Shown: positions 22,625-45,901 of the stretch, in pieces
Position numbering within the stretch: the first letter of the stretch is position 1
Layout: the number at the start of each line of letters is the position of its first letter
Origin: Modestobacter marinus
GTDB taxonomy: Bacteria > Actinomycetota > Actinomycetes > Mycobacteriales > Geodermatophilaceae
NCBI RefSeq assembly: GCF_011758655.1
Contig: NZ_JAAMPA010000002.1
Coordinates: 744,001-808,000, forward strand
DNA length: 64,000 nucleotides
Reading direction: 5' to 3'
Notes under the pieces: generated by a model
Databases searched by the model: none
Seen by the model: only the letters and a program-made list of their open reading frames with translations
What the model was told of the DNA's origin: nothing
Program-made: the position numbers and the translations under genes

Positions 22625-22670
22625 GGCCCCCTCCTAGGGGCCCGCCCACGAGCTCGCGAGTGGGTCCTTC
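22625..22670 (-). repeat. 3'-end hairpin repeat, copy A (short form)
   Basis: First of three related elements in this window. Read on the minus strand it follows the pucR stop (22672) at once, beginning GAAGGACCC. Stem CCCAC/GTGGG (22645-22649 with 22660-22664) encloses the conserved loop GAGCTCGCGA, followed by GGGCCCCTAGGAGGGGGCC. It lacks the outer 9-bp stem found in copies B and C. Probable transcription terminator or RNA 3'-end element. Confidence 0.75.
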
Positions 22671-22671
22671 C

Positions 22672-24585
22672 TCAGACCAGCGACTCGAGCCCGTCGTCCA
22701 GGACGGCGGCGACCACGCTCTCCACCGGCGGCCGGTGCGGCTGGTCCAGCCCGCGGATGCGCGCGGCGTGCAGGGCGAGCAGCAGGTTCAGCCGCAGCGT
22801 GGGGTCGGTGGTGAACGGGCCCAACAGCCGCTCGAGCTTCCCGATCCGGTAGCGCATCGTGTTGTAGTGGAAGTGCAGCCGGCGGGCGGACTCCGCGACG
22901 TTGAGGTTGGTCTCCAGCAGCACCCGCAGCGTCTCCCGCAGGTCGACCGAGTCCGGGTCCGAGGAGTCGGCCAGCGTGCCGAGCACCTCGTCGACGTAGG
23001 AGCGCAGCTCGTTGCTGTCCGGGATCAGCGACAGCAGCCGGAAGACGCCGAGCTGGTCGAAGTGGGTGACCGCGTGCCCGCCGTGGATCTCCTGACCGAC
23101 CACCAGGGCGCGCTGCGACTGCTGGTAGGCCTCCCCCAGCGCGGACAGCGACTCGGCCGGCCGGCCGATCCCGGTGCCCAGCAGGCGGCCCACCCGGCGC
23201 AGCCGGGCGTTGACCCGGGCGGTCACCGAGGCGACCAGGCTGGACAGCTCCTCGGGTGTGCGCCCGTCCAACGGCAGCACCGTGACGATCTCCGTGGCGA
23301 GCCCCGCGACGGCGGCACCGGCGACCTCGCTGTCCACCGCCGCCCGCCAGCCGTCGGCCAGCCGGTCCAGCACGTCCAGGGCCCGGGTCGGGTCGGCCCC
23401 GGCGTCGGCCACCGTCTCGGTGGCGGTCACCAGGACGACGACCGGGCCGTCGAGCCGCCAGCCGAAGGACCGGGCGTACGCCAGCGCCCGCTCGGTGTGG
23501 GCGAACGTCCCGCCGACCAGCCGGCGCACCATGTCGCCCTGGAACCGCAGCTCCACCGAGTGGACCGCCTGCGATCGGATCTCCGACAGCGCGGCGATGA
23601 CCGCTGCCTGCTCGAGCACCGCGCCGGCGCCGAGCAACATCGGGCCGTGCCGGTTCACCGCGACCAGCCAGCCGTGCCGCTGGTCACCGGCCATGATCGG
23701 CGCGACCGCGTACTCCCCGATCCCGCCGGGCAGCTCGTGGTGCCCGGGCACCAGCAGGATGCCGTCGGCCGGGGACAGGTCGGCGTCGGCGAGCACGTCG
23801 GCCGGGGTGACCACGCTCTGGTCGGCGCGGTTGCCCGACAGCCGGCGCGACGGGGTGAGGTCGGCGAACGCGTCGTCGGCGGCGGCGTCGAGCAGCCAGA
23901 GCCAGTCGCGGATCTCGGCGACCTCCTCCGGTGGGCCGGCATGGGTGGCCACCTCGCGGTCCGGGCCCAGCCCGAGGACGGCCGCTCCGGCGAGGAAGGT
24001 CGACACCTGCCCGGTGACCTCGGACAGCCCACCGCCGGACAGCGCCACGTCGATGAACTGGTTGTGCATCCGGTTGGCGAGGCTGAGTGCCTGGGTCTGC
24101 TTGTCGATGATCGCGCCGAGCACCTCGGCGACCACCTCGTCCAGCCGGGCCCGGGCGGGCAGCGCGAGCACCGGGAAGCCCCGGCGGTCGGCCTCGGCCA
24201 GCAGCTCGGCGGGGACGTCGCCGGCCGGGTTGCCCGAGCCGGCCTCCGAGCGGTAGGCGAGCGCGCCGCTGCCGGCCCGGTGCAGCCGCTCGATCAGGGC
24301 GCGGCTCTGCGCCGGGTCGCCGCTGGGCAGCCGGGCGCCCAGGACGACCAGCAGGTCGGGGCCCGCACCGGCGAGCGGGTCGGCCGGGCCGTCGACGGCG
24401 ACGTGCCGGACGATGCGGCGGGTGCCGGTGGCCCCGCCGACGACGAGGGTGCCGGCCAGCCCGGGCAGCTGGAGGAGCTGGTCGACGGTCAGGCCCATGC
24501 TGTCCTGCAGCGCGGTCCGGTCGGACGGCGGGAGCTGGGAGAGCACCGGCTCCGCGGAGGCGGGCATGGTGCTGAAAGTAGCCAT
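22672..24585 (-). CDS. PucR family transcriptional regulator
   Basis: A 637-residue regulator. The N-terminal PucR domain (GLTVDQLLQLPGLAGTLVVGG, about residues 30-160) is followed by a long GGDEF-like CdaR middle region, and the C-terminal PucR/CdaR helix-turn-helix with LRETLRVLLETNLNVAESA and RRLHFHYNTMRYRIGKLERL. PucR proteins control purine or allantoin catabolism in Bacillus and relatives. It sits between an NCS2 permease and an AllH-like gene, the expected context. ATG 24585 is chosen over ATG 24567; a promoter with -10 TACGCT (24606-24601) would give a very short leader. The long open frame to 25374 is antisense to the next gene. Confidence 0.87.
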   Translation of the reverse strand: MATFSTMPASAEPVLSQLPPSDRTALQDSMGLTVDQLLQLPGLAGTLVVGGATGTRRIVRHVAVDGPADPLAGAGPDLLVVLGARLPSGDPAQSRALIERLHRAGSGALAYRSEAGSGNPAGDVPAELLAEADRRGFPVLALPARARLDEVVAEVLGAIIDKQTQALSLANRMHNQFIDVALSGGGLSEVTGQVSTFLAGAAVLGLGPDREVATHAGPPEEVAEIRDWLWLLDAAADDAFADLTPSRRLSGNRADQSVVTPADVLADADLSPADGILLVPGHHELPGGIGEYAVAPIMAGDQRHGWLVAVNRHGPMLLGAGAVLEQAAVIAALSEIRSQAVHSVELRFQGDMVRRLVGGTFAHTERALAYARSFGWRLDGPVVVLVTATETVADAGADPTRALDVLDRLADGWRAAVDSEVAGAAVAGLATEIVTVLPLDGRTPEELSSLVASVTARVNARLRRVGRLLGTGIGRPAESLSALGEAYQQSQRALVVGQEIHGGHAVTHFDQLGVFRLLSLIPDSNELRSYVDEVLGTLADSSDPDSVDLRETLRVLLETNLNVAESARRLHFHYNTMRYRIGKLERLLGPFTTDPTLRLNLLLALHAARIRGLDQPHRPPVESVVAAVLDDGLESLV

Positions 24586-24896
24586 CCGGTCGCTGTGTGC
24601 AGCGTATGTCACGGACGAATCACGTTCAGTCACTGTACGTACCCCCAAAACGCCGTGCACGAGCTTGCTGCGCGAGATTCTGTCAGACGTCTCTGGACGG
24701 CAGAAGGCACGCTTGGCGACAATCGCCATACAGGCACGGGGGACGCGCCACTTAGGTTCGGGCCCCGGTCCTGTCCCGGCTCGGATGGTAGGCGGCTTCG
24801 TCGATCGACGGGCGGCTCGGCGTCCCGGCCGGGAGAGCCAGACCGGGACGGGCGCCGCCGCAGACGTCGCCCGTCGACCGCACGGGTGGAGGGCAC
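24586..24896. promoter_or_regulatory. Divergent control region pucR / DUF2877 gene
   Basis: 311 bases without a gene. The part next to pucR is the most A/T-rich stretch nearby and contains spaced GTCAC/ATCAC/GTCAC repeats (about 24609-24633), the palindrome GTACGTAC (24635-24642) and a pucR -10 candidate TACGCT on the minus strand (24606-24601). Toward the DUF2877 gene there is a -10-like TAGGTT (24753-24758) without a convincing -35. The remainder, 24760-24885, is featureless G+C-rich leader ending in GGAGGG before ATG 24897. Confidence 0.5.
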
Positions 24897-25892
24897 ATGC
24901 GCACCGTCGACGAGAGCACTGACGGCCACGGCCGGGACACGATCCCCGACGACACCGCCACCGGGCGGGCCGCCCGGGCCGGCGTCCCGACCATCCCGCT
25001 GCCCCGCGCGTCCGCCGCGCCCGGCGCCCGGGCGGCCGGCACCTCGGTGCCCGCCCAGGCCAGCACCGGGATCGCCGACCTGCTGCGCGGGCCGGTCCGG
25101 TCGGCCCGGGTCCTGCTGTCGGTGCCGGCGGCGGTGTACCTGGCGGTGCCGACCCCGCAGGGTCCGGACGTGGTGGGCGTGCTGACCTCCGACGCCGCCC
25201 GGCTCCCGCTGGGCCTGGTGCTCTTCCGGCCGTCGAACGGCCGGCCGGTGGTCTCCGTCCCCAGCGGCGCCCCCGCCCGGCTGGGTGGCGGCCGGCTGAC
25301 CGTCGGGGACCTGACCGTGAGCGCCGCCGCCTGGTGGGACCCCCGGCCCAAGCTGCCCACCGCACGCCCGGCACTGCTCCCCGAGGGGGTCCGTCAGCTG
25401 CGTTCGGCGCTGTACGGCGAGGGCGTGCCGCACAGCGCGTTCGTCCTCCCCGGCCTGCCCGGTGGGCCCAGTGGCCCGCTGGCCGCGCTGCGCGGCGCCG
25501 TCCGCCGGGCCGACGTCGACGCGGCCCTGCGCACCGCCACCCGGCTGATCGGCCTGGGCCCCGGTCTGACCCCCGCCGGCGACGACGTCCTCGCCGGCGT
25601 CACCGCCGGGCTGGTGCTGCTGGGGCACCCCGCCGCCGAGCGGTTCGGTGCCGGCGTGACCGGGCTGGCCAACGGGCGCACCACCGAGCTGTCCCGGGCG
25701 CTGCTGCGGCACGCCGCCGCCGGGCGGGTCAGCGGCGAGTTCGCCGCCGTGCTGCGGGGCCTGGTCGGCGACGGTGCGCTGGCACCGGCCATCGCCACGT
25801 TGCTGGCCACCGGCTCGACCAGCGGGCGAGCGATGGCGTTGGGGTTGTGCACCGCGATCGACCTCGTCGACCGCACCAGCCGCCCGCGCTGA
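24897..25892 (+). CDS. DUF2877 domain protein, AllH-like
   Basis: A 331-residue cytoplasmic protein. From about residue 55 it fits DUF2877, with the signature TRLIGLGPGLTPAGDDVLAG and TTELSRALLRHAAAGRVSGEF. DUF2877 includes AllH, a subunit of the oxamate carbamoyltransferase that acts at the end of anaerobic allantoin degradation with AllF and AllG. No AllF/AllG gene is visible here, so the activity of this protein alone is unclear. The first 55 residues are Ala/Pro/Asp-rich and appear disordered. ATG 24897 follows a good GGAGGG. It is divergent from PucR, its likely regulator. Confidence 0.75.
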   Translation: MRTVDESTDGHGRDTIPDDTATGRAARAGVPTIPLPRASAAPGARAAGTSVPAQASTGIADLLRGPVRSARVLLSVPAAVYLAVPTPQGPDVVGVLTSDAARLPLGLVLFRPSNGRPVVSVPSGAPARLGGGRLTVGDLTVSAAAWWDPRPKLPTARPALLPEGVRQLRSALYGEGVPHSAFVLPGLPGGPSGPLAALRGAVRRADVDAALRTATRLIGLGPGLTPAGDDVLAGVTAGLVLLGHPAAERFGAGVTGLANGRTTELSRALLRHAAAGRVSGEFAAVLRGLVGDGALAPAIATLLATGSTSGRAMALGLCTAIDLVDRTSRPR

Positions 25893-25934
25893 TCCCGGGC
25901 CCGGGCTCGACCGGTCAGCGGGCCGGGCCCGGGA
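25893..25934. terminator. Hairpin between convergent genes, overlapping a coding end
   Basis: 12-bp arms (25893-25904 with 25923-25934) start immediately behind the DUF2877 stop, and the right arm lies in the last codons of the convergent lipoprotein gene (stop 25915). No T-run. Confidence 0.6.
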
Positions 25935-26412
25935 GGAGTGGCCCCAGCCGGTCCCACTGTGCGATCCGGCAGCCATCGGTGCGGGAGAGCTGCAGGTCGA
26001 CCGGCTCCCCGCGCCACTGGCCGGTGACGTGCGCGGTCTGGGGTCCCCCGAACAGCTGGGTGCAGACCACGTCGTCGGGCACCGGGGCGAAGGGGTCCTC
26101 GAGCCCGGCCAGGTGCTGGCAGGCCGCCTCGGCGTCGGGGAGGTCGCCTTCGACCGAGTCCCCGCAGGCGAGGGTGTACTGCTCCACCGGCGCCCCCTCC
26201 CCCGGGTCGTACTCGACGACCAGGGTGGAGTCGGCGCCCGCGGTGTCCTCCGGAGCGGTGCTGGTGGCCGGGTCCGACGCCGTCGGCCCGGTCGCGGAGG
26301 TCGTCGCCGGTGGGGTCGTGGAGCCGACCGCCGACCCGGCGTCGTCCCCGGAGCCGCAGGCGGCCAGCACCATCAGCGGGAGGGCAAGGGTCAGCAGGAC
26401 GGCGCGGCGCAT
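25915..26412 (-). CDS. Lipoprotein with subtilisin-inhibitor-like domain
   Basis: A 165-residue predicted lipoprotein. The signal peptide ends in the lipobox LAAC (Cys19), followed by a 45-residue Ser/Thr/Ala/Pro spacer. The remaining domain resembles Streptomyces subtilisin inhibitor (SSI): four cysteines in the pattern LACGD, EAACQHL, DVVCTQLFGGPQ and DGCRIAQW, which would make the two SSI disulfides, with GQWRGEPV between. The reactive-site segment after the third Cys reads TQLFGG rather than the classical PMVYDP. Anchored on the outer membrane face, it may restrain secreted subtilases such as the one at 32171. Inhibitory activity is inferred from the fold only. Confidence 0.7.
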   Translation of the reverse strand: MRRAVLLTLALPLMVLAACGSGDDAGSAVGSTTPPATTSATGPTASDPATSTAPEDTAGADSTLVVEYDPGEGAPVEQYTLACGDSVEGDLPDAEAACQHLAGLEDPFAPVPDDVVCTQLFGGPQTAHVTGQWRGEPVDLQLSRTDGCRIAQWDRLGPLLPGPAR

Positions 26413-26430
26413 GCCGCCAGTGTGCTCCGG

Positions 26431-27294
26431 TCAGATGCGGGAAGCGGCGATGCTGGTGACCAGGATCGCCCGCGCGCCGAGCTCCCAGAGCTCGTCCATC
26501 ACCCGGTTGGTGTCGTCCTTGAGCACCATCGCCCGCACGGCCGACCAGCCCGGCGTCTGCAGCGGGCTGACCGTCGGCCCCTCGAGCCCCGGGGTGCGCG
26601 CGGTGGCCTGGCCGAGCAGGTCGTTGGGGCAGTCGTAGTCGAGCATCACGTAGCGCCGGGCGACCAGGACACCCTGCAGCCGGCGGCGCAGCTGGGCGAC
26701 GGCCGGCACCTCGTCGGCCCCGGCCCGGCCGACCAGCACGGCCTCGCTGGCCAGCACCGGGTCGCCGATGATCCGCAGCCCGGCGGCACGCAGCGTGGTG
26801 CCGGTCTCCACCACGTCGCAGACGGCGTCGGCGACGCCGAGCCGGCAGGCGGTCTCCACGGCACCGTCGAGCTTGACCACGGCGGCCTTCATGCCGGTCT
26901 CGTCGAGGAAGCGCTGCAGCAGCCCGGGGTAGGCGGTGGCGATCCGCTTGCCCTCGAGCTTCGCGACCTCGTCGACCGGGGACTCCGCCGGGCTGGCGAA
27001 GCGGAACGAGGACCGGCCGAAGCCCAGCGGCATCACCTCGGCCGCCACGTCGCCGCCCTCCGGCGGGGTGGTCTCCAGCAGCATGTCCCGGCCGGTGATG
27101 CCGACGTCCAGCGTGCCGGCCGCGACGTAGATCGCGATGTCCCGCGGGCGGAGGTAGAAGAACTCGGTGTCGTTCTCGGGGTCGTAGACCGCCAGCTCAC
27201 TGCTGGTGCGCCGCTGCCGGTACCCGCTCTCGGCGAGCATCGCCGCCGCGGGCTCGCTCAGGACACCCTTGTTCGGGACGGCGACGCGCAGCAC
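26431..27294 (-). CDS. hisG: ATP phosphoribosyltransferase, long form
   Basis: First enzyme of histidine synthesis: ATP plus PRPP gives phosphoribosyl-ATP. The 287-residue length with a C-terminal ACT-like HisG_C domain marks the long, histidine-feedback-regulated form that needs no HisZ. Visible landmarks are MLRVAVPNKGVLSEP at the start, GITGRDML (66-73) and the PRPP loop DVVETGTTLRAAGLRI (160-175). It lies 94 bases after hisE, the next enzyme of the pathway, separated by repeat copy B, so part of its transcript may depend on read-through of that hairpin. Confidence 0.95.
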   Translation of the reverse strand: MLRVAVPNKGVLSEPAAAMLAESGYRQRRTSSELAVYDPENDTEFFYLRPRDIAIYVAAGTLDVGITGRDMLLETTPPEGGDVAAEVMPLGFGRSSFRFASPAESPVDEVAKLEGKRIATAYPGLLQRFLDETGMKAAVVKLDGAVETACRLGVADAVCDVVETGTTLRAAGLRIIGDPVLASEAVLVGRAGADEVPAVAQLRRRLQGVLVARRYVMLDYDCPNDLLGQATARTPGLEGPTVSPLQTPGWSAVRAMVLKDDTNRVMDELWELGARAILVTSIAASRI

Positions 27295-27330
27295 TGAGGG
27301 GGCTCCTTCGAGGACGACGGTGTGTGACCC

Positions 27331-27388
27331 GGCCCTCCTGCAGGGGCCCGCGCCGAGCTTGCGAGGCGTGGGGGGCAGGAGGGTCCTT

Positions 27389-27389
<1 letters not shown>
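27331..27389 (-). repeat. 3'-end hairpin repeat, copy B
   Basis: Two-tier stem-loop starting at the hisE stop codon (27389, minus strand). Outer stem 27333-27341 with 27375-27383 (9 bp, perfect); inner stem 27347-27354 with 27365-27372 (8 bp, one G-T); loop GAGCTTGCGA. Compared with copy C at 45843-45901, both stems differ in sequence but keep pairing. Located between hisE and hisG. Confidence 0.85.
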
Positions 27390-29562
<2,173 letters not shown>

Positions 29563-29566
<4 letters not shown>

Positions 29567-30180
29567 CGACGGGCTCCCAACAGTCGTTCGACGTACTTGG
29601 CGATGACGTCCACCTCCAGGTTGACCCGGTCACCGGGGGCTCGTTCGCCCAGGGTGGTCTCGCGCAGGGTGGTGGGGATGAGGCTGACCTCGAACCAGGG
29701 CTCGGGTGCGTCAGCGAGGGCGCTCACGGTCAGCGAGACGCCGTCGACGGTGATCGAGCCCTTCTCCACGACGTAGCGGGCCAGCTCGGCCGGGACGGCG
29801 ATCCGCACGACCTCCCAGTCGTCGCCGGGGGTGCGGGAGACCACGGTGCCCACGCCGTCGACGTGGCCCTGCACGATGTGGCCGCCCAGCCGGGTCTGCG
29901 GGGTGACGGCGCGCTCGAGGTTCACCCGGTCGCCGGAGCCGGTGGCGCCGAGGCTGCTGCGGCGCAGCGTCTCGGCCATCACGTCGGTGCTCCAGACGCC
30001 GGTGCCGTCGGGGCCGGGCTCGACGCCAGTGACGGTCAGGCAGACGCCGTTGACCGCGATCGAGTCGCCCAGGGCGACGTCCTCCAGGGCCTTGCGTGCC
30101 CGGATGCGCAGCACCGCGCTGTCCGCGCCGTCCTCGCGCACGACCAGGGTGCCGAGCTCTTCCACGATGCCGGTGAACAC
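29563..30180 (-). CDS. ribE: Riboflavin synthase, alpha subunit
   Basis: Dismutates two molecules of dimethylribityllumazine to riboflavin. The 205-residue protein shows the diagnostic N terminus [10 protein letters not shown] and two lumazine-binding repeats, each with [13 protein letters not shown]-like (first) and [13 protein letters not shown] (second) cores; [14 protein letters not shown] joins them. GTG 30180 follows the ribD stop with one base between, and its own stop overlaps ribBA. Also named ribC in some organisms. Confidence 0.96.
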
Positions 30181-30181
30181 C

Positions 30182-31237
30182 TCAGCTCCCTCCGCCGGTC
30201 GACGCTGTCCACCCAGTGTGCCGGGTGGGTCGCAACCGGATCTGCACGTCCCCGCCCATGCGGGTGACGTCGGTGACCTGCAGGTGCAGCGCGTCGGTGA
30301 TCGTGCTGATTCCCAGGCCGCCCACCATGGCGGCGCCGCCGCCCAGCAGCGTGGGAGCGACGTGCACCACGGCCTCGTCGACGAGGCCGGCGGCGAGGAA
30401 GGCGGCGGCCAGGGTCGGCCCGCCCTCCAGCAGCACCCGGCGGACGTCGGCGTCGAACAGCTCGGCCAGCAGCGCGGCGGGGCCGGCGGCCCGGCTGACC
30501 AGTGTGCGGGCGGCGGCGTCGTGCACCCGGGCGGTGGCCGGTACCCGGCCGCGGCGGTCCAGCACCACCCGCAGCGGCTGGCGGTCGGCGGTGCGGCCCT
30601 CGGCGTCCCGGACGGTGAGCTGCGGGTCGTCGGCGAGCGCCGTCCCGGAGCCGACGAGCACCGCGTCGCAGGTGGCCCGCAGCTGGTGCACGGCTGCCCG
30701 GGCCTCGGGCCCGGTGATCCAGCGGCTGGTGCCGTCGGCGGCGGCGACCCGGCCGTCCAGGGTGGTGGCGACCTTCCAGACGACCTGGGGGCGGTGCTCG
30801 TGCACCCCGGTCAGCCAGCCGGCCAGCGCGCCCTCGGCGGCTGCGGCCTGCTCGGCGCCCAGCTCGACGTCGACCCCGGCCCGGCGCAGCCGGTCGGCGC
30901 CGCCGGTGGCCAGCCGGGTCGGCTCGGGGACGGCGACGACCACGCGGGCGACCCCTGCGGCGATCAGCGCATCGGCGCACGGCCCGGTGCGGCCGGTGTG
31001 CGCGCACGGCTCGAGGGTGACGACGGCGGTGCCCCCGCGGGCCCGCTCGCCGGCCTGGGCGAGCGCGTGCACCTCGGCGTGCGGGCCACCCGGCGGGGAG
31101 GTCGCCCCCTCCCCCACGACGGCGCCGGCCGCGTCCAGCAGCACCGCACCGACCGGCGGGTTGGGGCTGGTCGTGCCCAGCACCCGCAGCCCCAGGTCCC
31201 GGGCCCGGGCCATCGCCGCCTGCTCGGCGGCGTTCAC
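30182..31237 (-). CDS. ribD: Bifunctional riboflavin deaminase/reductase
   Basis: Converts the GTP cyclohydrolase II product to 5-amino-6-ribitylaminouracil phosphate. The N-terminal deaminase domain binds zinc through His53, Cys78 and Cys87 with catalytic Glu55 ([10 protein letters not shown] and [13 protein letters not shown]). The C-terminal reductase domain (from about residue 150) shows [21 protein letters not shown] and [13 protein letters not shown]. Length 351 residues, as expected. Its GTG start overlaps the stop of rpe by 4 bp; ribE follows after one base. Confidence 0.95.
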
Positions 31238-31899: not shown

Positions 31900-32079
31900 C
31901 CGGCGATCGTAGGGGGCCGCCCGTCCACGGCCACGGTCCACCGGCGGCGGCCCGCAGGGCCGGCCGGCTCGATCGCGACCCACGCCCGGGCGGATGTGGC
32001 GCGGGTCACTCCACCGGCGCGGCGGCCGCTCCGTCCGATGGCGCGGCGACCCCCTGGCCAGCGACTTCCCGTGACCCTC

Positions 32080-32108
32080 TTGTGACCCTGCGTGGTCCGA
32101 CCTAGCGT
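32080..32108 (+). promoter_or_regulatory. Candidate housekeeping promoter of the subtilase
   Basis: TTGTGA (32080-32085), 17 bases, then TAGCGT (32103-32108) fits the actinobacterial sigma-A pattern TTGAC-N17-TANNNT. GTGACCCT occurs twice just around the -35 box (32071 and 32082). The coding start follows 62 bases later with GAGGAG ahead of it. Confidence 0.55.
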
Positions 32109-32170
32109 CCCCCGGCACCGGCACCCGGCTCCGCCAGGTCCCGGCCCCACTCCGCTGGACGAGGAGCACC

Positions 32171-35367: not shown

Positions 35368-35415
35368 TGTGCGGTGGGTGCCCGTTCCCGGCCGGGACCG
35401 GGCACCCACCGCACA
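35368..35415. terminator. Bidirectional hairpin, 17-bp perfect arms
   Basis: 35368-35384 pairs perfectly with 35399-35415, closing over a 14-base loop that is itself nearly self-complementary. It lies between the convergent stops of the aldehyde dehydrogenase (35353) and the hypothetical gene (35460). Confidence 0.8.
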
Positions 35416-35459
35416 TCGCCGGCCGGGCGGTCGGGCAGGCGGCCGGGGTGTCGGGCGGG

Positions 35460-35957: not shown

Positions 35958-36003
35958 GGCTGCGGACGCTAGCCGTGCCGGGGCCCCCGGTCACCCGGTT
36001 TCG

Positions 36004-37419
36004 TCAGCGGGTGCGGCGGAGCAGCGCCATGAACATCGCGTCGGTGCCGTGCCGGTGCGGCCACAGCTGGGCGTGCTCTCCGCGCTCGATGCCGGGCACC
36101 TCGGGGAACAGCGGGGCCACCGGGAGCACCTCGACGTCGTCCCGGCCGGCGACCGCGTCCACCACGGCGACGGTCTCGCCGGTGTGCGGTGAGCAGGTCA
36201 CGTAGGCGACCACTCCCCCGGGCCGCACCGAGGCGAGTGCGCTGTCCAGCAGCTGCCGCTGCAGCTCGGCCAGCGGCGCGACGTCGGCGGCCGTCCGGCG
36301 CCAGCGCACCTCCGGACGGCGGCGCAGCGCCCCCAGCCCGGTGCAGGGCGCGTCCAGGAGCACCCGGTCGAACGACCCGGCCGGCCAGCTCGGCGCCGTG
36401 CCGTCGGCGACCAGCACCTCGACGTCGTCCTCACCGGCCAGGGCGCCGCGCACCAGCTCGGCGCGGTGCTCGCTGCGGTCGGCCGCGGTCAGGTGGACCC
36501 CGGCCGGCCGGACGGCGGCCAGCAGACCCGCCTTGCCCCCCGGGCCGGCGCACATGTCCAGCCAGCGCGCGTCCGGCCCCTCCAGCGGCGCCCGGACCAG
36601 GGCGAGCGCGGCCAGCTGGCTGCCCTCGTCCTGCACCGCGGCCGCGCCGGAGCGGACCGCGGCCAGCCGGCCCGGGTCGCCCCCGTGCAGCCGGACGGCG
36701 TGCGGCGACCACGGCCCGGGTTCCCCACCGGAGGCGGCGGCCAGCTCGTCCCGGTCGACATGCCGGGCGACCAGGTGCACCTCGGGTGCGGCGTCGTCGG
36801 CGAGCAGCGCGGGCTCGACCTCGTCGCCGTCGGCCAGCGCGTCCCGCCAGGCCTCCACGATCCAGCGCGGGTGGTCGGTGGTGAGCGTCAGCCGCTCGTC
36901 GTCGTCGGCCGGGGCGAGGGCGGCGACCCAGGCCGCCCGGTCACCCCCGGCGGCGACCTTGCGCAGGACCGCGTTGACCAGTCCGGAGGCGCCGGTACCG
37001 ACGATCGCCCGGGTCAGCGCGACGGTGGTGTCGACTGCGGCGTGCGCCGGCACCCGCAGGTCGATCAGCTGGTAGGCGCCCAGCCGCAGCAGGTCCAGCA
37101 CCTTCGGGTCGAGCTCGGCCAGCGGCCGGGACACCAGCGTGGTCAGGACGGCGTCCAGGGTGCCGGTGGCGCGCAGCGTGCCGTAGGCCAGCTGGGTGGC
37201 GAAGGCGGCGTCCCGGGGTTCGAGCTGCCGCTCGCGCAGCAGCTGCGGCAGCAGCAGGTTGGCGTAGGCCGCCCGGCTGGAGACGCCGTCGAGCACGTCG
37301 TAGGCGGTCAGCCGGGCGCCGTCCAGGGTCGGCCGGTGCCGTCGGGACTGCGGGCGCTGGTTGCCGGTGCCGGGGTCGTTCCGCCGCTTGTGGCCGGCCC
37401 GGCGCTCCGGGCCGGTCAT
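36004..37419 (-). CDS. rsmB: 16S rRNA m5C967-type methyltransferase (RsmB)
   Basis: SAM-dependent rRNA cytosine-5 methyltransferase of 471 residues. An N-terminal NusB-like RNA-binding domain ([23 protein letters not shown]) precedes the methyltransferase domain with the SAM loop [14 protein letters not shown], the motif IV cysteine Cys359 in [18 protein letters not shown] and the catalytic Cys409 in VTCSPH. The first 35 residues are basic and probably disordered. Its start overlaps the fmt stop by 4 bp (ATGA), in the order def-fmt-rsmB. Confidence 0.92.
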
Positions 37420-38357
37420 GCGGTCACCTGCGCACCGAGTCGCTCACCCGGTTCCAGGCGCGCGCCGCGTGCCCAGTCGGCCGCCGGCAGCATTCTCTTG
37501 CCGGCCGGCTGCACCGACGACAGCCGGACGGCACCGCGCCCGGTGCCCACCAGCACCCCGGTCGGCCCGACCGACAGCTCACCGGGCTCCAGCGCGAGCG
37601 AGGAGGGCAGCGGCTCGACCGGCGCGAGCCGCAGCCGGTTGCCGCGCCACGTCGTCCAGGCGCCGGGGGCCGGCGTCACGCCGCGCACCCGGCGGTCGAC
37701 GACGTGGGCCGGCAGGGCCCAGTCGACCTGGGCGTCGGCGGTCTCGATGCGCGGCGCCAGGCTGACCCCCTCGGCCGGCTGGGGCTCGGGCTGCAGCGAG
37801 CCGTCGGCGATGCCGTCCAGCGTGGCGACCAGCAGCCGGGCACCGCTGACGGCCAGCCGGTCCAGCAGGTCGCCGGCGGTGTCGGTGGCGCCGATCGGCT
37901 CGGTGACCACGCCGAAGACCGGGCCGGTGTCCAGGCCCGCCTCCAGCTGGAAGGTGGCCGCGCCGGTGACCTCGTCACCGGCCATGATCGCGTGCTGCAC
38001 CGGGGCGGCGCCGCGCCAGGCGGGCAGCAGCGAGAAGTGCAGGTTCACCCAGCCGTGCCGCGGGACCGCCAGGGCCGCCGGCGGCACCAGGGCGCCGTAG
38101 GCGACCACGGGGGCGCAGTCGACGGAGAGCTCGGCGAGCTGGAGGAGGAACTCCGGCTCCCGCGGGGAGCGGGGCTGGAGCACCGGGATGCCGGCGGCGT
38201 CGGCGCGCTCGGCGACCGGTGACCGGCTGGTGCGCCGGCCGCGGCCGGACGGGGCGTCGGGCCGGGTGAGGACGGCGACGACGTCGTGGGCGGAGCCCAG
38301 CAGTGCGTCCAGGGCGACGACGGCCGGCGCCGGGGTGCCGGCGAACAGGAGCCTCAG
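37416..38357 (-). CDS. fmt: Methionyl-tRNA formyltransferase, probable CTG start
   Basis: Formylates Met-tRNA(fMet) for translation initiation. The 313-residue protein carries the formyl-tetrahydrofolate site with Asn105, His107 and Asp143 ([18 protein letters not shown] and AGLDTGPVF) and the N-terminal strand [19 protein letters not shown]. Homologues begin at this strand. In this frame the codon there is CTG at 38357, which overlaps the def stop as CTGA, mirroring the ATGA/GTGA couplings in neighbouring genes. The only in-frame GTG upstream (38429) would add 24 unconserved residues read from inside def. I therefore favour CTG. Confidence 0.88.
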
Positions 38358-38911
38358 TGGGGGCTCACCTTCACCACGGGTGCCGGCACCGGCGACCCGT
38401 CGGGCAGCCACGCCGGCGCGCCCTGCCACTCGGCGCCCTGCAGCACGTCCAGGGCGGCCGCGCGGGCCTCGGCGTCGAGCCGGTCGACGAAGAGGACGCC
38501 GTCGAGGTGGTCGGTCTCGTGCTGGATGGCCCGGGCGAGCTTGTGCGAGCCCTCCACCCGGATCGGCTCGCCGTGCATGTCCCAGCCGGTGGCGGCGACG
38601 GTGAGGTAGCGGTCGCAGTCGAACCGGTAGCCGGGGATGGACAGGCAGCCCTCGGCGTCCCGCTCGACGTCCTCGCCCACGGGGACGACGTCGGGGTTGA
38701 CCAGGTGGCCGACCTCGCCGTCGACGTACCAGGTGAACACGCGCAGGCCGACGCCGATCTGCGGCGCAGCGAGGCCGGCGCCGCCGGCCGCGTGCATCGT
38801 GTCGGTCAGGTCGGCGACGAGCTGACGCAGTTCGGCGTCGAAGTCGACGACGGGGGCGGCCGGGGTGCGCAGCACCGGGTCGCCCATGATCCGGATGGGG
38901 GTGACGCTCAC
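38354..38911 (-). CDS. def: Peptide deformylase
   Basis: Fe2+/Zn2+ hydrolase that removes the formyl group from nascent peptides, the counterpart of fmt with which it is coupled. All three family motifs are intact: [11 protein letters not shown] (43-53), EGCLSIPG with metal ligand Cys89, and HETDHLDG with the HExxH helix (131-135). Length 185 residues, type 1-like with a longer C terminus usual in actinobacteria. Starts at ATG/GTG 38911, next to and divergent from a small membrane-protein gene at 38973. Confidence 0.96.
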
Positions 38912-38972
38912 CCGACGATGGTAGGTGTCGCGGGCTGCGGCGCCTGCAGGGTGATCTGGCTACGGTGCAGCC

Positions 38973-39467
38973 ATGGCCTCACTCGCCTCGCACCGCGTCC
39001 ACGCCGTGATCAGCACCCTCGTCGACGGACTGACGGTCGGCGGTGCCGAGGCGGCCCTCGACCTGCCGCCCCGGTCCGCGGCCCGCTTCCGGGTCTACTC
39101 GGCGCTGATGCTCACCGTCGCCGCCGACGCGGTGGCCCACGACCTGCCCTCGCTCCGGCGCACGTTCCGGGGGATGCCGGTCGAGTCGGCGTCCCCCGCC
39201 GACCGGGCGGTGACCCGGCACCAGGCGCTCGCGACGACCGGCTGGGGGCTGGCGGCGACGGCCGTCCACGGCCCGCTGGCCCGGGCGCTGCGCCGACGTG
39301 GTCACCCGCGACCGCACCTGCTGGTCGGGATCGTGGTCGGGGTGGGCACCGCCGCCACGACGCTGCCGGTGCGCTGGCGCCGGGCCACCGAGCGCGCCGT
39401 CGAGGACCTGGCCGCCGCCCAGCTGGACGCCGAGCTGGCGCAGCTGCTGGACCAGCCGATCGACTGA
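38973..39467 (+). CDS. Hypothetical protein with two hydrophobic segments
   Basis: A 164-residue protein I cannot name. Moderately hydrophobic helices appear around [21 protein letters not shown] and [20 protein letters not shown]; the N-terminal half is amphipathic with [20 protein letters not shown]. The C terminus ([20 protein letters not shown]) forms a charged helix. ATG 38973 is the only reasonable start. The gene is divergent from def by 61 bases and convergent with the SRPBCC gene at 39505. Codon use is normal for the window. Confidence 0.55.
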
Positions 39468-39504
39468 CCCTGCGGCCGGCGGGGTGCCGGTCCGGTGCGG
39501 GAGG

Positions 39505-40296
39505 TCAGGCCGGCACGGGGAGCTCCTGCAGCCAGGCCTGCCAGGCCGGCTGCTCGCGCCGCACGTGCTCCGCCGCGTCTGCGGAGAACAGATACGCCCG
39601 CACGCCCGCGGTCGCCTTCCCGTCCTCCTCGCCGTACGTGAAGGCGGTGAGCATCCCGGGCACCGGCGCGGTGAGCCGGACCTGCGCCTGCCGCTCGCCT
39701 ACCCGCTCCACCGTGCCGGTGGCGCCGCGCGCCTCCACCGGGGTGCCCTCCTCGCCCAGTCCGAGTGCCGCACGCAGGGTCGACCAGAGGGTCTCCGCGT
39801 CGCCGGCGTGGGAGGCGGTGGCCTCCAGCTGGGTGGCCTCCTGGCCGGTGAAGTGCGCCAGGTAGAGGCGCAGGTTGTCGAAGAACGGCAGCCACCCCGG
39901 GGCCAGGGTGTCCCACCACTCGGACTCCCAGGCGGCGCCGATCCCGAAACCGCTGCTGGTGACGCGCACGACGCAGGTGCCGCCGGACCGGGCCTCGACG
40001 ACGAACTCCGACGTCAGCGGGCTCAGCGAGTCCGGGTCCTTGCCCATGAGGGCAGCCCAGTCCTCCTCGTAGACGAGGCGGCGCGGCGGGTCCCAGCCGG
40101 TGACCCGGCCGTCGGAGCCCATCTCCGGGCCCATGGTGAAGTGCAGGGACCCGCCCTCGCGCTCCTCCATCTCGGTCTGGGTGAACCAGGCGCTCATGCC
40201 CTTCGCGGTGGCGATGGCCTCCCAGACCTGTTCCGGGGTGCCCGGGACCTCGACGCTGAACTCCAGGCGGTACGGGACGTTCGGGACAGTGCTCAT
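39505..40296 (-). CDS. SRPBCC (AHSA1-like) domain protein
   Basis: A 263-residue protein whose N-terminal 150 residues follow the AHSA1/SRPBCC pattern (YRLEFSVEVPGTPEQVWEAI, AKGMSAWFT, VTGWDPPRRLVYEEDW, SEWWDTLAPGWLPFFDNL). The C-terminal 110 residues continue with a second, weaker alpha-beta segment (TVERVGERQAQVRLTAPVPG). Such pairs of SRPBCC protein plus ArsR-type regulator are common in actinobacteria; ligand and role are unknown. Translationally coupled (ATGA overlap) to the regulator gene at 40293-40883. Confidence 0.8.
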   Translation of the reverse strand: MSTVPNVPYRLEFSVEVPGTPEQVWEAIATAKGMSAWFTQTEMEEREGGSLHFTMGPEMGSDGRVTGWDPPRRLVYEEDWAALMGKDPDSLSPLTSEFVVEARSGGTCVVRVTSSGFGIGAAWESEWWDTLAPGWLPFFDNLRLYLAHFTGQEATQLEATASHAGDAETLWSTLRAALGLGEEGTPVEARGATGTVERVGERQAQVRLTAPVPGMLTAFTYGEEDGKATAGVRAYLFSADAAEHVRREQPAWQAWLQELPVPA

Positions 40297-40883
40297 GACC
40301 TCTCCTCTGACTTCTCCTCGGGGACGGGGTGGGCGGCGACGACGAGCCGGTGCGGGCGCCCGTCGTCGTGGTGGTACCGGGCGGCCAGGTCGAGCACCGC
40401 TGCGGTGAGGTCGTCGGCGAAGGCAGCCCGGTCGGCGGCCGACCGGAAGCCGATCCGGGTGTCGATGGTCAGCGTCGGCAGGCGGGTGCCGGTCGCGCCG
40501 GCCCGGCGGGCCAGGGCGCCGACCTCGCGCACCAGCCGGCCGGCCAGCGCGACGAGGTAGCCGCCCGACAGGTGGTCGGCGTTGGCGTCCGGGTCGGCGG
40601 CGGACGCGCTGACCACCGCCGGCGACACGACGTAGGACGCCGCCGACGCCTGCAGCACCCGCTCGGTGATCCCCCCGTGCCGGCGCTCCTCGGCCAGCTC
40701 CACCAGCCCGTGGGCCTCCAGCGCCTTGAGGTGGTAGTTCACCTTCTGGCGCGCGATGCCCACCTGCGCGGCGAGCCCGGCGGCCGACGCCGGGACGGTC
40801 AGCTCGCCGAGCAGCCGGGCCCGGACCGGGTCCAGGGCGGCGGCTGCTGCGTCCGCGCTCTCGATCACCTCGACGTCGTGCAC
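40293..40883 (-). CDS. Winged-helix regulator of the SRPBCC gene
   Basis: A 196-residue transcription factor with an ArsR-like N-terminal winged helix (ALDPVRARLLGELTVPASAA, then AAQVGIARQKVNYHLKALEAHGLV) and a 110-residue C-terminal domain that probably senses a ligand; no metal-type cysteines are present. It precedes and overlaps the SRPBCC gene by 4 bp, forming a two-gene operon. A GACAA/TTGTC dyad overlapping a TTGACA box upstream suggests autorepression. GTG 40883 is used as the start. Confidence 0.8.
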   Translation of the reverse strand: MHDVEVIESADAAAAALDPVRARLLGELTVPASAAGLAAQVGIARQKVNYHLKALEAHGLVELAEERRHGGITERVLQASAASYVVSPAVVSASAADPDANADHLSGGYLVALAGRLVREVGALARRAGATGTRLPTLTIDTRIGFRSAADRAAFADDLTAAVLDLAARYHHDDGRPHRLVVAAHPVPEEKSEERS

Positions 40884-40900
40884 GAGGTCACCGTGCTCCC

Positions 40901-40918
40901 GACAAGAAAAGTTGTCAA
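40901..40918 (-). promoter_or_regulatory. Promoter/operator of the regulator-SRPBCC operon
   Basis: On the minus strand a consensus -35 box TTGACA (40918-40913) overlaps an inverted repeat GACAA-N6-TTGTC (40901-40905 with 40912-40916). This A/T-rich island ends 18 bases before the GTG start. The matching -10 box is not clear. Confidence 0.55.
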
Positions 40919-41088
40919 GGGTGCCGAGGGCGGCTCGTCCAGCTTCTGGGAAGACGACCGTCGACGGTCCTCCGGCGCAGCGGCTCGTCGCGGTCGGGCG
41001 CCGGCCGGCGCTCAGCCGCCGGTCGACCAGGCCCGTTCACGCGGGTCCAGCTGGACCCGCTGGGCGACCTCCGTGGCACGGCCGGCCA

Positions 41089-43086
41089 CTAGGCCAGTTC
41101 GAGCGGGTCCAGCTGGACGCGGACGTGCTCGGTGACCTTCTTGGCGCTGCGCACCCCCTGGACGTCGTGCAGTGCCCGCGCCAGGGCGACCCCGTCGCTG
41201 CGCCGCACCCGGACCAGGTAGCGCTCCCGCTCGCCCTCCTGCCCCGGCCGGGGCGGCTCGGGCACCGGCCCGAGGACGTCGGCGCCCTCGGGCAGCCGCA
41301 GGGCGGCGAGGAAGTCCGCCAGCGCGCCCGGGGACGCCGACAGCGAGGCCATCCGGGTGACCGGCGGGAAGCCCAGCTCCCGGCGGTCGGCCAGCTCGCG
41401 GGTGGCCAGCCCGGCCGGGTCCCAGCGGACGAGCGCCTGCACGACCGGGTGCCCGGCGTCGGCGGCGACCACCACCTGGCCGCCGGCGCGCACCAGCGCG
41501 GCCGCGTTCATCCAGCGGCGCATCGTCTCCTCCCCCGCCCGCAGGTCCGCCCGGCCCAGCAGCGCCCAGGAGTCCAGCAGCAGGGCCGCGCCGTAGCCGC
41601 CCTCGGCCACCGGCTCCGCCCCGGGGGTGGCCACCACGATCGACGGGTCCCCGGGGACCGTGGCCAGCACGCCGGAGCTGCGGCCGGAGACCCGCACGGC
41701 CGCGCCGGGGAACGCCCGGCCCAGCTCCTCGGCCGTGCGGGAGGCGCCGATGACGGCGGCCCGCAGCTTGGTGCCGTGGCAGTGCGGGCAGTCGAAGGTC
41801 GCCGCCGGGCGGGCGCACCACCGGCAGGCCGCGATCCGGACGCCGTTCGGTCCCGGTGCCGGCGCGATGCCCAGTGGGCCGGCGCAGTGCGCGCACCGCG
41901 CCGGCGCCCGGCAGCGGTCGCAGACCAGCGAGGGCACGTACCCGGCGCGGGGCACCTGGATGAGCACGGGGGCGCCGTCGGCCAGCGCCCGCCGGGCGAC
42001 CGTGAACCCGAGCGTGGGCAGCCGGGCGGAGCGCGCGGCCGGGTCCCGGGCCAGCTCGAAGTCGCTGCCCAGCGCCTCGACCCGCGGGGCGGCGGCACGC
42101 AGGGTGGCCCGGTCGGCGATCAGCTCGTGCGCCCACCCGGACTCCACCAGCAGCGCGGCCTCGGCGGTGCGCGCCGTCCCGGCGACCACGGCCGCGCAGG
42201 AGGCCAGGTGTGCCCGGTGCACCAGCACGTCGCGGGCGTGCGGGTAGGGCGCCCGCGGCTCGGCGTGGAGGTCGTCGCCGTCGTCCCAGATCACCACCAG
42301 GCCCAGCTCCCGCACCGGTGCGAACACCGAGCCGCGGGTGCCCAGCACCACCTGGGCGGTGCCACGGGAGGCGGCGAGGAAGCGGCCGTAGCGGGTGTCC
42401 GGCGAGGAGTCCGCGCGCAGCACGGCGACCGAGCCGGCCGGCAGCAGCCGCTCCGCCGCGGCCGCCAGCCGGTCCAGGTCCTTGCCGTCGGGGACGACGA
42501 CCAGCGCACCCCGGCCGCCGGACAGCGCCGCCTGCGCCAGCTCGGCCAGCCGGGTGGGCCAGTCCTCGCCGGGCAGCGCCGTCCAGACCGCCCGGGCGGG
42601 GTGCCCCTCGGCGACCGCGGTGAGCAGCTGCGGCCCGGTCGGGTAGCGGGCGAAGCCGGCCGGGTCCGGGGCGGGCGGTGGGGCCGGCGGGTCGAGCCGG
42701 GGCCGCTTCTCCGGAGCGCCCCGGCGCGGTGGCAGGGCCAGCCGCAGCACGTCGGTGAGCGACCCGGCGTACCGGTCGGCGACCGAGCGGGCCAGCTCGG
42801 CGACCTCCGGGGTCAGCACCGGCTCGGCGGAGACGACCTTGGCCAGCGGCGCGAGCTTGCCGGTGTGGTCGGTGCCGGAGGCGAGCTCCAGGACCACGCC
42901 GTCCACCAGCTTGCCGGCGAACCGCACCCGGACCCGACAGCCGGCCACCACCTGCTCGGCGAGCTCGTCCGGGACGGCGTAGTCGAAGGGCCGGTCCAGG
43001 TGGGCCAGCGGCACATCGACGACGACCCGGGCGACCCGCTGGATGCGGGTGCCCGGGTCGTCGTCGATCGGCCGTGCCGTGCTCAG
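41089..43086 (-). CDS. priA: Primosomal protein PriA, actinobacterial form without intact helicase motifs
   Basis: Replication-restart protein, 665 residues from a CTG at 43086. The 3'-DNA-binding N-terminal domain begins [21 protein letters not shown], and the zinc-binding region holds eight cysteines ([14 protein letters not shown] and ACRWC...FDCPHC). The Walker A position reads [12 protein letters not shown] and the DExH box IWDDGDD, so ATP-driven unwinding is not expected; this loss is known for actinobacterial PriA. The start codon CTG overlaps the metK stop as CTGA; the next conventional start, GTG 43014, would delete conserved residues. Confidence 0.88.
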
Positions 43087-44309
43087 GAGACGCCCACCGC
43101 CGACTTCAGCGCGTCGACGCGGTCCAGGCGCTCCCAGGGCAGCTCGACGTCGGAGCGGCCGAAGTGGCCGTAGGCCGCCGTCGGGGCGTAGATCGGCCGG
43201 AGCAGGTCCAGGTCCCGCACGATCGCGCCGGGCCGCAGGTCGAACACCGACGAGATCGCCTTCTCCAGGACCTCCTCGGGCACCGTGTTGGTGCCGAAGG
43301 TCTCGACGAAGAGGCCGACCGGGTGCGCGGCACCGATCGCGTAGGCGACCTGGACCTCGCACCGGCGGGCCAGCCCGGCGGCGACGACGTTCTTGGCCAC
43401 CCAGCGCATCGCGTAGGCCCCGGACCGGTCGACCTTCGAGGGGTCCTTGCCGGAGAAGGCGCCGCCGCCGTGCCGGGCCATGCCGCCGTAGGTGTCGACG
43501 ATGATCTTGCGGCCGGTGAGCCCGGCGTCGCCCATCGGGCCGCCGATGACGAACTTGCCGGTCGGGTTCACCAGCAGCCGGTAGCCGGTGGTGGGCAGCC
43601 CGAGCTCGCGCAGCGCGGGCTCGACCACGAGCTCCTGCACGTCCGGGGCGAGCAGCGTGTCGATCGAGATGTCCTCGGCGTGCTGGGAGGAGACCACCAC
43701 GGTGTCCACGGCGACCGGGCGGTCGTCCTCGTAGACCACGGTGACCTGCGTCTTGCCGTCCGGGCGCAGGTAGGGCACCGACCCGTCCTTGCGGACGGCC
43801 GACAGCTGCCGGGACAGCCGGTGCGCCAGCGCGATCGGCAGCGGCATCAGCTCGGGCGTCTCGTCGGTCGCGTAGCCGAACATCAGGCCCTGGTCGCCGG
43901 CGCCCTGGCGCTCGATCAGGTCGTCGGCGGCCGCGGCCCGGTGCTCGGCCGCGGTCAGCTCGGCGGTGCGGGCCTCGTAGCCGGTGTCCACGCCCTGGGC
44001 GATGTCCGGGGACTGGGCCCCGATGGAGACGCTGACGCCGCACGAGGCGCCGTCGAAGCCCTTGCGGGAGGAGTCGTAGCCGATGCCCAGGATCGTCTTG
44101 CGCACGATGTCGGCGATGTCGACGTAGCCGGAGGTGGTGACCTCACCGGCGATGTGCACCTGGCCGGTGGTGATGAGGGTCTCGACGGCGACGCGGCTGC
44201 GCGGGTCCTGGGCGAGCATCGCGTCCAGGATCGAGTCGCTGATCTGGTCGGCGATCTTGTCGGGGTGGCCCTCGGTCACCGACTCGGACGTGAAGAGACG
44301 GCGTGGCAC
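43083..44309 (-). CDS. metK: S-adenosylmethionine synthetase
   Basis: Forms S-adenosylmethionine from methionine and ATP. The 408-residue cytoplasmic enzyme shows [20 protein letters not shown] (ATP-binding His in GHPDK, 14-18), [20 protein letters not shown], and the phosphate-binding loop [19 protein letters not shown] 44309 follows GGGAG; the longer frame to 44369 is not conserved. Its TGA stop overlaps the probable CTG start of priA. A 127-base spacer separates it from coaBC; I see no SAM riboswitch in it. Confidence 0.97.
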
Positions 44310-44436
44310 TCGGTTCTCCCTGGGGTCGGCTGCCGAGCGCGTTGTTCGCGGTCGGCCGGGCTGCACCACGGCAGTGGTCGGCCCGACGGCTGAGGCTACC
44401 GGCGGGAGCCGACACGCGTTCGGTGAGGCGGTGGCG

Positions 44437-45768
44437 TCACGGCTGCCGGGCGACCCGGTCGGCCACCACGTCCCAGATCGCGGCGGCGACCGCGTCCTTG
44501 CGGCCGGCCGGCACGGCGGTCGCCGACCCGTCGGCGGCCAGCACGGTGACCTCGTTCTCGGTGCGGCCGAAGACCCGGCCGGCGGAGACGTCGTTGACCA
44601 CCAGCAGGTCGACGCCCTTGCGGGCCAGCTTGGCGCGGGCGTGGGTCAGCACGTCGCCCTCGGCGTCGCCGGTCTCCGCGGCGAAGCCCACGACCAGCTG
44701 CCCGGCCGGCCGGGCGGCCACGAGCTCGACCAGGACGTCGGGGTTGCGGACCAGCTCCACCGAGCTGGGCTCGGCCGCCCCGCCCTTCTTCAGCTTGCTG
44801 CCGGCGACCGTGGCGGGCCGGAAGTCGGCGACCGCGGCGGCCATGACGACGACGTCGGCCGGGCGCGCCTCGCCCCGCGCCAAGGGCAGAGCGTCCTGCG
44901 CGGAGCTCTCGGCCGGCTGCCGTCCGGAGGACTCGGACGGCTGCCGTCCGGAGGACTCGGACGACTGCCGTCCGGAGGACTCGGACGACATCGCGAGCCG
45001 GAGCTCCTCGGCGGTCTCCACCCGGACCACCCGCACCCCGAACGGAGCGGGCAGGTCGACGTTGGCCGCGACCAGCACGACCTCGGCGCCGCGGGCCGCG
45101 GCGACCCGGGCGAGCGCCCAGCCCTGCAGCCCGGAGGAGCGGTTGCCCAGGAACCGGACCGGGTCCAGCGGTTCCCGGGTGCCCCCGGCGCTGATCACCA
45201 CCCGGCGGCCGCTCAGGTCGGGGGCCAGTGCACCGGCACCCGCGGACAGCACCAGCTCGGCCAGCGCGGCGACGTCGGCCGGCTCGGGCAGCCGCCCGGG
45301 GCCGGAGTCCGGGCCGGTGAGCCGCCCCACGGCCGGGGGCAGGACGACGGCTCCGCGGCGGCGCAGTGTCGCGACGTTGTCCTGGGTGGCCGGGTGCAGC
45401 CACATCTCGGTGTGCATGGCCGGCACGAAGACGACCGGGCAGTGGGCGGTGAGCAGCGTCGCGGTGAGCAGGTCGTCGGCCCGGCCGGCGGCTGCCCGGG
45501 CCAGCAGGTCGGCGGTGGCCGGGTTCACCAGGACGAGGTCGGCGCGCTGCCCGATCCGCACGTGGGCGACCTCGGGGACGTCGTCCCAGACCTCGGTGGA
45601 CACCGGGTTGCCGCTGAGGGCCTCGAAGGTCGCGGCGCCGACGAAGCGCAGCGCCGACGCGGTGGGGACCACCCGGACGTCGTGGCCGGACTCGGTGAGG
45701 GCGCGCAGCAGCAGTGCGGATTTGTAGGCCGCGACGCCGCCACCCACGCCCAGGACGATCTGTGCCAT
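44437..45768 (-). CDS. coaBC: Bifunctional phosphopantothenoylcysteine decarboxylase/synthetase with repeat insertion
   Basis: Coenzyme A synthesis. The N-terminal FMN-dependent CoaC domain (1-180) carries [17 protein letters not shown] and [17 protein letters not shown]. The CoaB domain begins with [20 protein letters not shown] (192-211) and continues with [14 protein letters not shown] and KLKKGG. Between [10 protein letters not shown] and [10 protein letters not shown] (residues 261-292) lies a serine-rich insertion of four 8-residue units (SSESSGRQ type) not found in the family. It is in frame, and all catalytic motifs are intact, so the enzyme should work. ATG 45768, preceded by GAGG, begins the protein of 443 residues. 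Confidence 0.94.
44891..44986 (-). repeat. 24-bp tandem repeat inside coaBC
   Basis: Three nearly identical 24-bp units (44915-44938, 44939-44962, 44963-44986; one base difference) plus a diverged copy at 44891-44914. They encode SSESSGRQ-like octapeptides inside the CoaB domain. High identity points to recent expansion. Confidence 0.93.
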
Positions 45769-45793
45769 CCGTCCATCCTCCCGCAGACACGAC

Positions 45794-45824
45794 GACGCCC
45801 CCGGCACCCGGTGCCAGGGGCGTC
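45794..45824 (-). terminator. Second hairpin in the rpoZ-coaBC spacer
   Basis: Stem 45794-45806 with 45812-45824 (13 bp, one mismatch), loop of 5. It lies between hairpin repeat copy C and the coaBC start, so the rpoZ-coaBC spacer holds two successive hairpins on the minus-strand transcript. Confidence 0.6.
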
Positions 45825-45842
45825 ACCCGTAGGGACTGGAAC

Positions 45843-45901
45843 GGCCCCCTCGCAGGGGCCCGCTGCGAGCGTGCGAGCAGTGGGGGGCGAGGGGGTCCTT
45901 C
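45843..45901 (-). repeat. 3'-end hairpin repeat, copy C
   Basis: Two-tier stem-loop directly after the rpoZ stop (45903, minus strand). Outer stem 45845-45853 with 45887-45895 (9 bp, perfect); inner stem 45859-45866 with 45877-45884 (8 bp, one G-T); loop GAGCGTGCGA. Shares GGGGCCCGC, the loop frame GAGCnnGCGA and the terminal GAAGGACC (minus strand) with copies A and B. Confidence 0.85.

Follow-up and report, generated by a model that had tools for sequence, protein, structure and literature searches.

The attC sites of integrons are hairpins that lie right behind stop codons; their structure is conserved, their stems vary, and one strand is preferred. Mycobacterial interspersed repetitive units (MIRUs) are short dispersed repeats of actinobacteria that are tied to the codons at gene junctions and insert where a stop and a start codon overlap (ATGA). 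The accessible part of PMC12548453 describes MIRUs that insert at start codons and carry an open reading frame (ORF) coupling to the next gene. Repetitive extragenic palindromes (REPs) of gammaproteobacteria are preceded by a head, GT(A/G)G (accessible part of PMC2817692), and 446 of 4,072 E. coli REPs (11%) are at most 15 nt from a stop codon (accessible part of PMC12306157). We analyzed a 64,000-nt stretch of the Modestobacter marinus genome (contig NZ_JAAMPA010000002.1, positions 744,001 to 808,000; hereafter the window) that holds three copies of a hairpin element next to stop codons, and we followed this element through the family Geodermatophilaceae. We think it fairly probable that the element is a REP-like dispersed palindrome, specific to the Geodermatophilaceae and anchored at stop codons, that has spread by a non-autonomous route.

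Like gammaproteobacterial REPs and bacterial interspersed mosaic elements (BIMEs), the element is a short imperfect palindrome that exceeds 100 copies per genome, lies mainly outside genes and shows compensatory stem changes and inverted and composite arrangements. Unlike REPs, it has no GTAG or GTGG head (its leader is GAAGGACC), and it is longer than the REPs described in the accessible part of PMC2817692. It is also anchored to stop codons far more tightly than E. coli REPs are in the figures available from PMC12306157. No description of the element was found in searches of open-licence literature (titles, abstract openings and passages), and a term search of the main text of the RepRanger paper found no Modestobacter, Blastococcus or Geodermatophilaceae. 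No Rfam family matched the window at its gathering score; six loci gave two matches below the cut-off (E 0.3 and 0.48).

We found that the element is abundant. A strict pattern taken from the three copies had 17 matches in the 5.10-Mb genome, compared to 0 for a reversed control. A covariance model built from 18 copies found at least 136 copies at E<=0.1 (150 candidates scored) and at least 125 at E<=0.01 (141 scored); all copy numbers per genome given here are lower bounds, among the candidates scored. A first-pass annotation of the window, which had proposed this kind of search in the genome and its relatives, had named dozens to hundreds of copies as supporting evidence, in agreement with these counts. 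The nearest RsmB, at 97% identity, was that of Modestobacter sp. VKM Ac-2977, consistent with the genus assignment. All 22 other genomes of the genus that were searched were positive, with 17 to at least 145 matches at E<=0.01; the lowest two were incomplete genomes. Across the Geodermatophilaceae, the element was present in 85/96 genomes (M. marinus included) and in 9/12 genera sampled, and is thus not genus-specific, contrary to one earlier suggestion. It was found in 0/16 genomes from other families of the same order and in 0/18 outgroup loci. A class-wide search, with stricter filters that lose weak matches, gave 2 positive genomes out of 394, both Geodermatophilaceae. A second model, applied to 13 genomes with low or zero counts, was positive in 5 (50 matches in G113, 14 in G106, 8 in G073, 5 in G041 and 1 weak match in G055) and gave no matches in G115 or in the genomes searched of genera g22, g24 and g26. 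Three of these positives (G073, G106 and G113) and G115 belong to genus g28, where the range extends from 0 in G115 to at least 57 in other genomes of this genus.

We found that the paired structure of the element is kept by compensatory change. The element is a 57-60 bp imperfect hairpin, GAAGGA-CCCCnnnnGC / CCCCCA / nnnn-CTCGCnnGCTCG-nnnn / CGGGnCCCT / GCnnnnGGGG-CC. Among 117 copies from the family loci and the window (116 distinct), 95.5% of cells were paired, and 13/17 pairs had changes on both sides. Cells changed on both sides numbered 315, compared to 97.8 in shuffles (sd 13.1) and 15-33 in slid controls. The alignment was fitted to the model, which favors structure; nonetheless, the slid controls were far lower. 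The first-pass annotation had taken such changes as showing selection. The conservation of pairing is borne out. Selection would be expected to produce it, but imperfect palindromes can also acquire paired changes without selection, through correction by template switching, which could have produced these as well. The unpaired blocks GAAGGAC, CTCGCnnGCTCG and GGGnCCCT were better conserved than the middles of the stems. In a second subtype, GTCCTCCTCA...GAGCCTCT, CCC/GGG is jointly changed to CUC/GAG. Between two subfamilies there is also a three-way CYC/GRG/CYC covariation (possibly a triple helix), which may be a single change shared by descent.

We found that most copies start at a stop codon. 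In the M. marinus genome, 115 matches corresponded to 111 unique copies, of which 107 were at least 50 nt long; four shorter copies, including one from the window (copy A, below), were set aside. The copies analyzed are the better-scoring part of the at least 136, and genes were called with our own codon-usage script rather than a standard gene finder. A same-strand stop codon lay within -3 to +3 nt of the element start in 81/107 copies, and the start was exactly at +1 in 62. In 8 copies (4 of them also among the 81) the 3' end was at a convergent stop. The earlier criterion that copies should always be 3' to stop codons therefore holds for most of them. Copies inside called genes occurred at two loci: L098 has two antisense copies in one short ORF (2062-2118 and 2347-2405), and in L099 a copy (2093-2149) lies near the 3' end of a gene whose reading frame runs through it.

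The anchoring also held before convergent next genes, where 32 copies behind the upstream gene started at its stop and 6 did not, which means that the placement cannot be due to promoter avoidance. C preceded TGA in 60/62 copies at +1, compared to 156/252 ordinary genes, and the next co-directional gene started a median of ~49 nt after the element. In these respects there was no MIRU-type ATGA coupling; unlike a MIRU, the element is a hairpin and prefers CTGA. CTGA is not a simple target: 60/61 copies preceded by CTGA were at called stops, and the loci counted contained 195 CTGA at stops (element-bearing ones included) and 184 in non-coding sequence away from called stops, which were almost never used. 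A selenocysteine insertion sequence (SECIS) or other stop readthrough signal was rejected. The next in-frame stop was a median of 67 codons away (n=117), compared to 72 (n=1178) at ordinary genes, and TAG and TAA also serve as the preceding stop, which argues against SECIS and UGA readthrough. RpoZ and HisE had near-identical C-termini of unchanged length whether or not the element was present, indicating that it supplies no new protein end.

Copies that start at stop codons and are oriented with the gene might also indicate a selected mRNA 3' element that blocks 3' exonucleases or slows terminating ribosomes, and is kept for that effect. E. coli REPs no more than 15 nt from a stop codon are reported to stall ribosomes (accessible part of PMC12306157). 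The element also recurs at some gene ends and is missing from others. In 62 family loci around rsmB (L122-L183), a forward element within 300 nt followed hisE in 27/44, rpoZ in 28/53, metK in 18/55, hisG in 7/40 and priA in 7/60 (one of the hisE rows, L139, looks mis-assigned). None was called after coaBC (0/53) or rsmB (0/61), although the coaBC end has space. We nevertheless doubt this explanation, because inverted copies are found at the same point, congeneric species have no copy or another subtype, some species have only 0-8 copies, and conserved mismatches weaken the hairpin on the mRNA strand (see below).

Gain, loss, inversion, subtype replacement, nesting and tandem extension were all found between relatives at fixed positions next to stop codons. 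Within Modestobacter, the hisE site held several subtypes, at positions fixed to within a few nucleotides. Among the 28 rpoZ rows with a forward element, 2 had it behind an inverted copy, and 4 further rows held an inverted copy only. Two other sites, L064 and L088, were aligned in 19 species each and read by eye (one further locus per site aligned too short). At L064, 6 copies were forward and 4 were inverted at the stop, one of the inverted ones being followed by a forward copy; 5 species had collapsed remnants and 4 had empty sites. At L088 there were 16 forward copies of several subtypes, 1 remnant and 2 empty sites. The collapsed remnants in L257, L258, L259 and L260 keep much of the outer stem and have lost the inner hairpin by deletion.

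Some copies were nested inside other copies (L103, L006, L066 and L121), and a 3' tail, GTTCCAGCACGTCACC, followed about a fifth of copies. Of 20 extended regions, 17 were displayed, and 15 of these 17, by our reading, ran on into additional right halves, with GTTCCAGCACGTCACC or a variant of it as the link. The turnover, together with inversion, nesting and tandem extension, supports the REP-like mobile palindrome that was one of the possibilities first raised for this element. Other local duplications were also seen. Loci L303, L300, L293, L301 and others of L289-L308 contain minisatellite-like tandem right halves of ~45 nt with GTTCCAGCACGTCACC spacers. A ~22-nt tandem duplication at the hisE end of L138 includes the stop codon and stops exactly at the element start, and in L024 (1380-1600) a ~94-bp unit, one element with its flanks, is duplicated in tandem.

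The strand that folds best was not the transcript strand. On the transcript strand, A.C predominates or is frequent at three positions that could accommodate a pair. In the family alignment, one outer position was A.C in 104/116 distinct rows. For the pair flanking CCC/GGG, the family and own-genome alignments had A.C in 73 and 71 copies, G-C in 27 and 17, A-T in 10 and 15, and G.T in 0 and 1, respectively. One inner pair was A.C in 20 and 32 copies in the two alignments, compared to G.T in 1 and 3. Together, these two inner positions have 196 A.C cells and 5 G.T cells. Because the A.C positions of the transcript are G.U or G.T pairs on the complement, the complement forms longer uninterrupted stems. 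For the full-length copies in the window (B and C, below), RNA folding gave -40.5 kcal/mol for the complement compared to -32.2 for the transcript strand, and DNA folding gave -19.0 compared to -15.7; mean values over 206 copies were -38.1 and -31.6. As a pointer rather than proof, these results hint that the relevant structure forms in the template strand and not in the mRNA.

A strong GC-rich hairpin at 3' ends, directly after stop codons, could also be read as an intrinsic transcription terminator confined to the Geodermatophilaceae. Unlike intrinsic terminators, however, the element has no U-tract, has conserved loops and often has another hairpin downstream. A T-tract (at least 5 T in the next 9 nt) was present in 0/206 copies (226 before requiring a GGCC-like end and 50 nt; one, L003/L109, counted twice). 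The missing tract is weak evidence, because many terminators of high-GC actinobacteria have no U-tract and the T-based pattern scan did not flag the other hairpin behind rpoZ either. A second perfect hairpin of at least 7 bp within 80 nt was as frequent behind the element (19/80) as behind ordinary genes (46/173). There was no preference for convergent ends, the next gene being co-directional or convergent in a ratio of 48:32, compared to 176:124 at gene ends with a gap of at least 20 nt (element-bearing ends included). Perfect hairpins of at least 8 bp within 260-300 nt downstream were found behind rpoZ in 26/33 rows with the element (window included) and 20/21 rows without it, at L064 in 9/19 rows (1 of the 4 empty ones) and at L088 in 13/19 (both empty ones included). 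The hairpin downstream of rpoZ in the window is imperfect and was not counted; comparable hairpins occur in relatives without the element. In addition, copy B sits between hisE and hisG, and hisG starts 36 nt later. These findings weaken the terminator interpretation offered earlier. The element is probably not a terminator, and we consider it very improbable that it is a family-specific one.

Several observations weigh against a REP-like palindrome that has spread by mobility. One concerns inheritance. In a comparison of the 85/117 copies assignable to one of five gene ends, the outer arm CCCCTCGC was common to 12/27 rpoZ copies. Across genera, outer arms were more alike at the same gene end (0.679) than at different ends (0.649), a value reached in 7/2000 permutations; inner arms had no such likeness (418/2000). 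Since outer arms resemble each other more at the same gene end, some copies (at rpoZ, and probably at hisE) were probably inherited and persist by descent. Furthermore, fast change at fixed points could also be gene conversion between old copies. In the full form of that explanation, old elements fixed at stop codons now undergo only gene conversion, palindrome correction by template switching keeps their stems paired, and there is no present mobility. Positions fixed to a few nucleotides while subtypes differ, and the partly locus-specific outer arm of rpoZ copies, would fit. However, gene conversion leaves the placement at stop codons and the copies nested in the middle of other copies unexplained, and the empty sites in congeners as well unless copies are also deleted. 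We regard it as improbable.

Other points against mobility come from the searches for an enzyme and for traces of insertion. The REP transposase domain (Y1_Tnp, PF01797) was found in 0/28 genomes, with the control positive in 5/14 known genomes. The element thus behaves like a REP without qualifying as one associated with RAYTs (REP-associated tyrosine transposases), as transposases of this type were not found. No clean insertion junction was found between filled and empty sites. Target-site duplications were sought in 450 combinations of length and offset: a CTGAN-type 5-mer had 4 exact matches (one copy counted twice), compared to a mean of 1.2 and a maximum of 3 in shuffled controls, and the top combination had 9 compared to 3.0 (30 shuffles). 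We did not accept a duplication, for which the signal is weak at best. The strand clue is partial, because G.T and A.C mispairs were about equal (45 and 45) outside the three positions. The restriction of the element to the Geodermatophilaceae holds for the bacterial genomes searched, as distinct from phage, plasmid and viral collections.

Two further sources of mobility were considered. The element shares with attC the position behind a stop codon, the conserved hairpin structure, the variability of the stems and a strand preference. In contrast to attC, the genes that host it, such as rpoZ, hisE and metK, belong to the core genome and keep their order, and an integron integrase (TIGR02249) was found over the curated cut-off in 0/15 genomes; recombinase matches below the threshold occurred, but the 14 controls all had such matches too, and none of these controls was positive over the cut-off. 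A search with the tail gave 55 matches (26 forward and 29 reverse), compared to 27 for a reversed control. Five of 30 tail loci were inspected; one held a variant element, and in four the match was taken to be inside coding sequence. We rejected an autonomous longer element carrying the tail, as no enzyme gene was seen in these five loci, which were not annotated.

The three copies in the window and their neighbors are listed in Table 1. Their coordinates and minus-strand placement had been given correctly in the first-pass annotation, and each adjoins a stop codon as described there, starting at +1 (PucR-type regulator gene), -1 (hisE) and +1 nt (rpoZ). The names hisE, hisG, rpoZ and coaBC hold, whereas "pucR" is based on weak regulator matches. 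The 9-bp outer stems of copies B and C fold on the transcript strand as claimed. The 8-bp inner stems are continuous only on the plus strand of the window, through G.U pairs; the transcript has 3 + 4 pairs around an A.C mismatch. Copy A scored 31 bits with a model that included it and folded no better than shuffles (z -0.89). The covarying stems therefore rest, within the window, on B and C, as A is a deletion derivative. Between copy A and the hisG region, a plus-strand gene of 331 aa (24897-25892) had no NCBIfam match.

Table 1. Copies of the element and neighboring features in the window.
Feature	Positions	Strand	Remarks
Copy A	22625..22670	-	46 nt; deletion derivative without outer 5' arm and 5' half of internal loop
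PucR-type regulator gene	22672..24585	-	upstream of copy A; weak family matches only
hisG	26431..27294	-	downstream of copy B
Copy B	27331..27389	-	full-length 59-nt element; first base is last base of hisE stop codon TAG
hisE	27389..27652	-	upstream of copy B
coaBC	44437..45768	-	downstream of copy C
Separate GC-rich hairpin	45794..45824	-	downstream of rpoZ
GTTCCAG	45836..45842	-	start of 3' tail GTTCCAGCACGTCACC after copy C
Copy C	45843..45901	-	full-length 59-nt element; 1 nt past rpoZ stop codon TGA
rpoZ	45903..46166	-	upstream of copy C

For the REP-like palindrome that we favor, we suggest the following model. The form in which copies spread would be a DNA hairpin, most likely made by the template strand, where the A.C positions become G.U pairs, and an enzyme would recognize the hairpin and its conserved loops. 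A copy landing right behind a stop codon would spare the protein and usually leave another hairpin in place downstream, and copies may be either tolerated at stop codons or targeted to them. After transcription, the mRNA would have a strong hairpin next to the stop, and this, as E. coli REPs suggest, could delay ribosomes at termination or impede 3' exonucleases. A more specific version is only tentatively put forward: a mobile palindrome that seeks stop codons, moves as a template-strand hairpin by an enzyme other than a Y1/RAYT transposase, and inserts in either orientation at the stops of core genes throughout the family, leaving the protein intact.

Three quarters of the copies of the Geodermatophilaceae palindrome examined keep to within a few nucleotides of the stop codon, compared to about a tenth of E. 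coli REPs at a distance of up to 15 nt (accessible part of PMC12306157). Annotators should note that a gene may be followed by a strong hairpin that is not its terminator. How a short repeat can spread when it has no enzyme of its own is an old question that the element makes testable, as it does the effect, if any, of a hairpin immediately after the stop on translation termination or mRNA decay. If the palindrome does seek stop codons, it would represent a new mode of dispersal, linked to the ends of genes.

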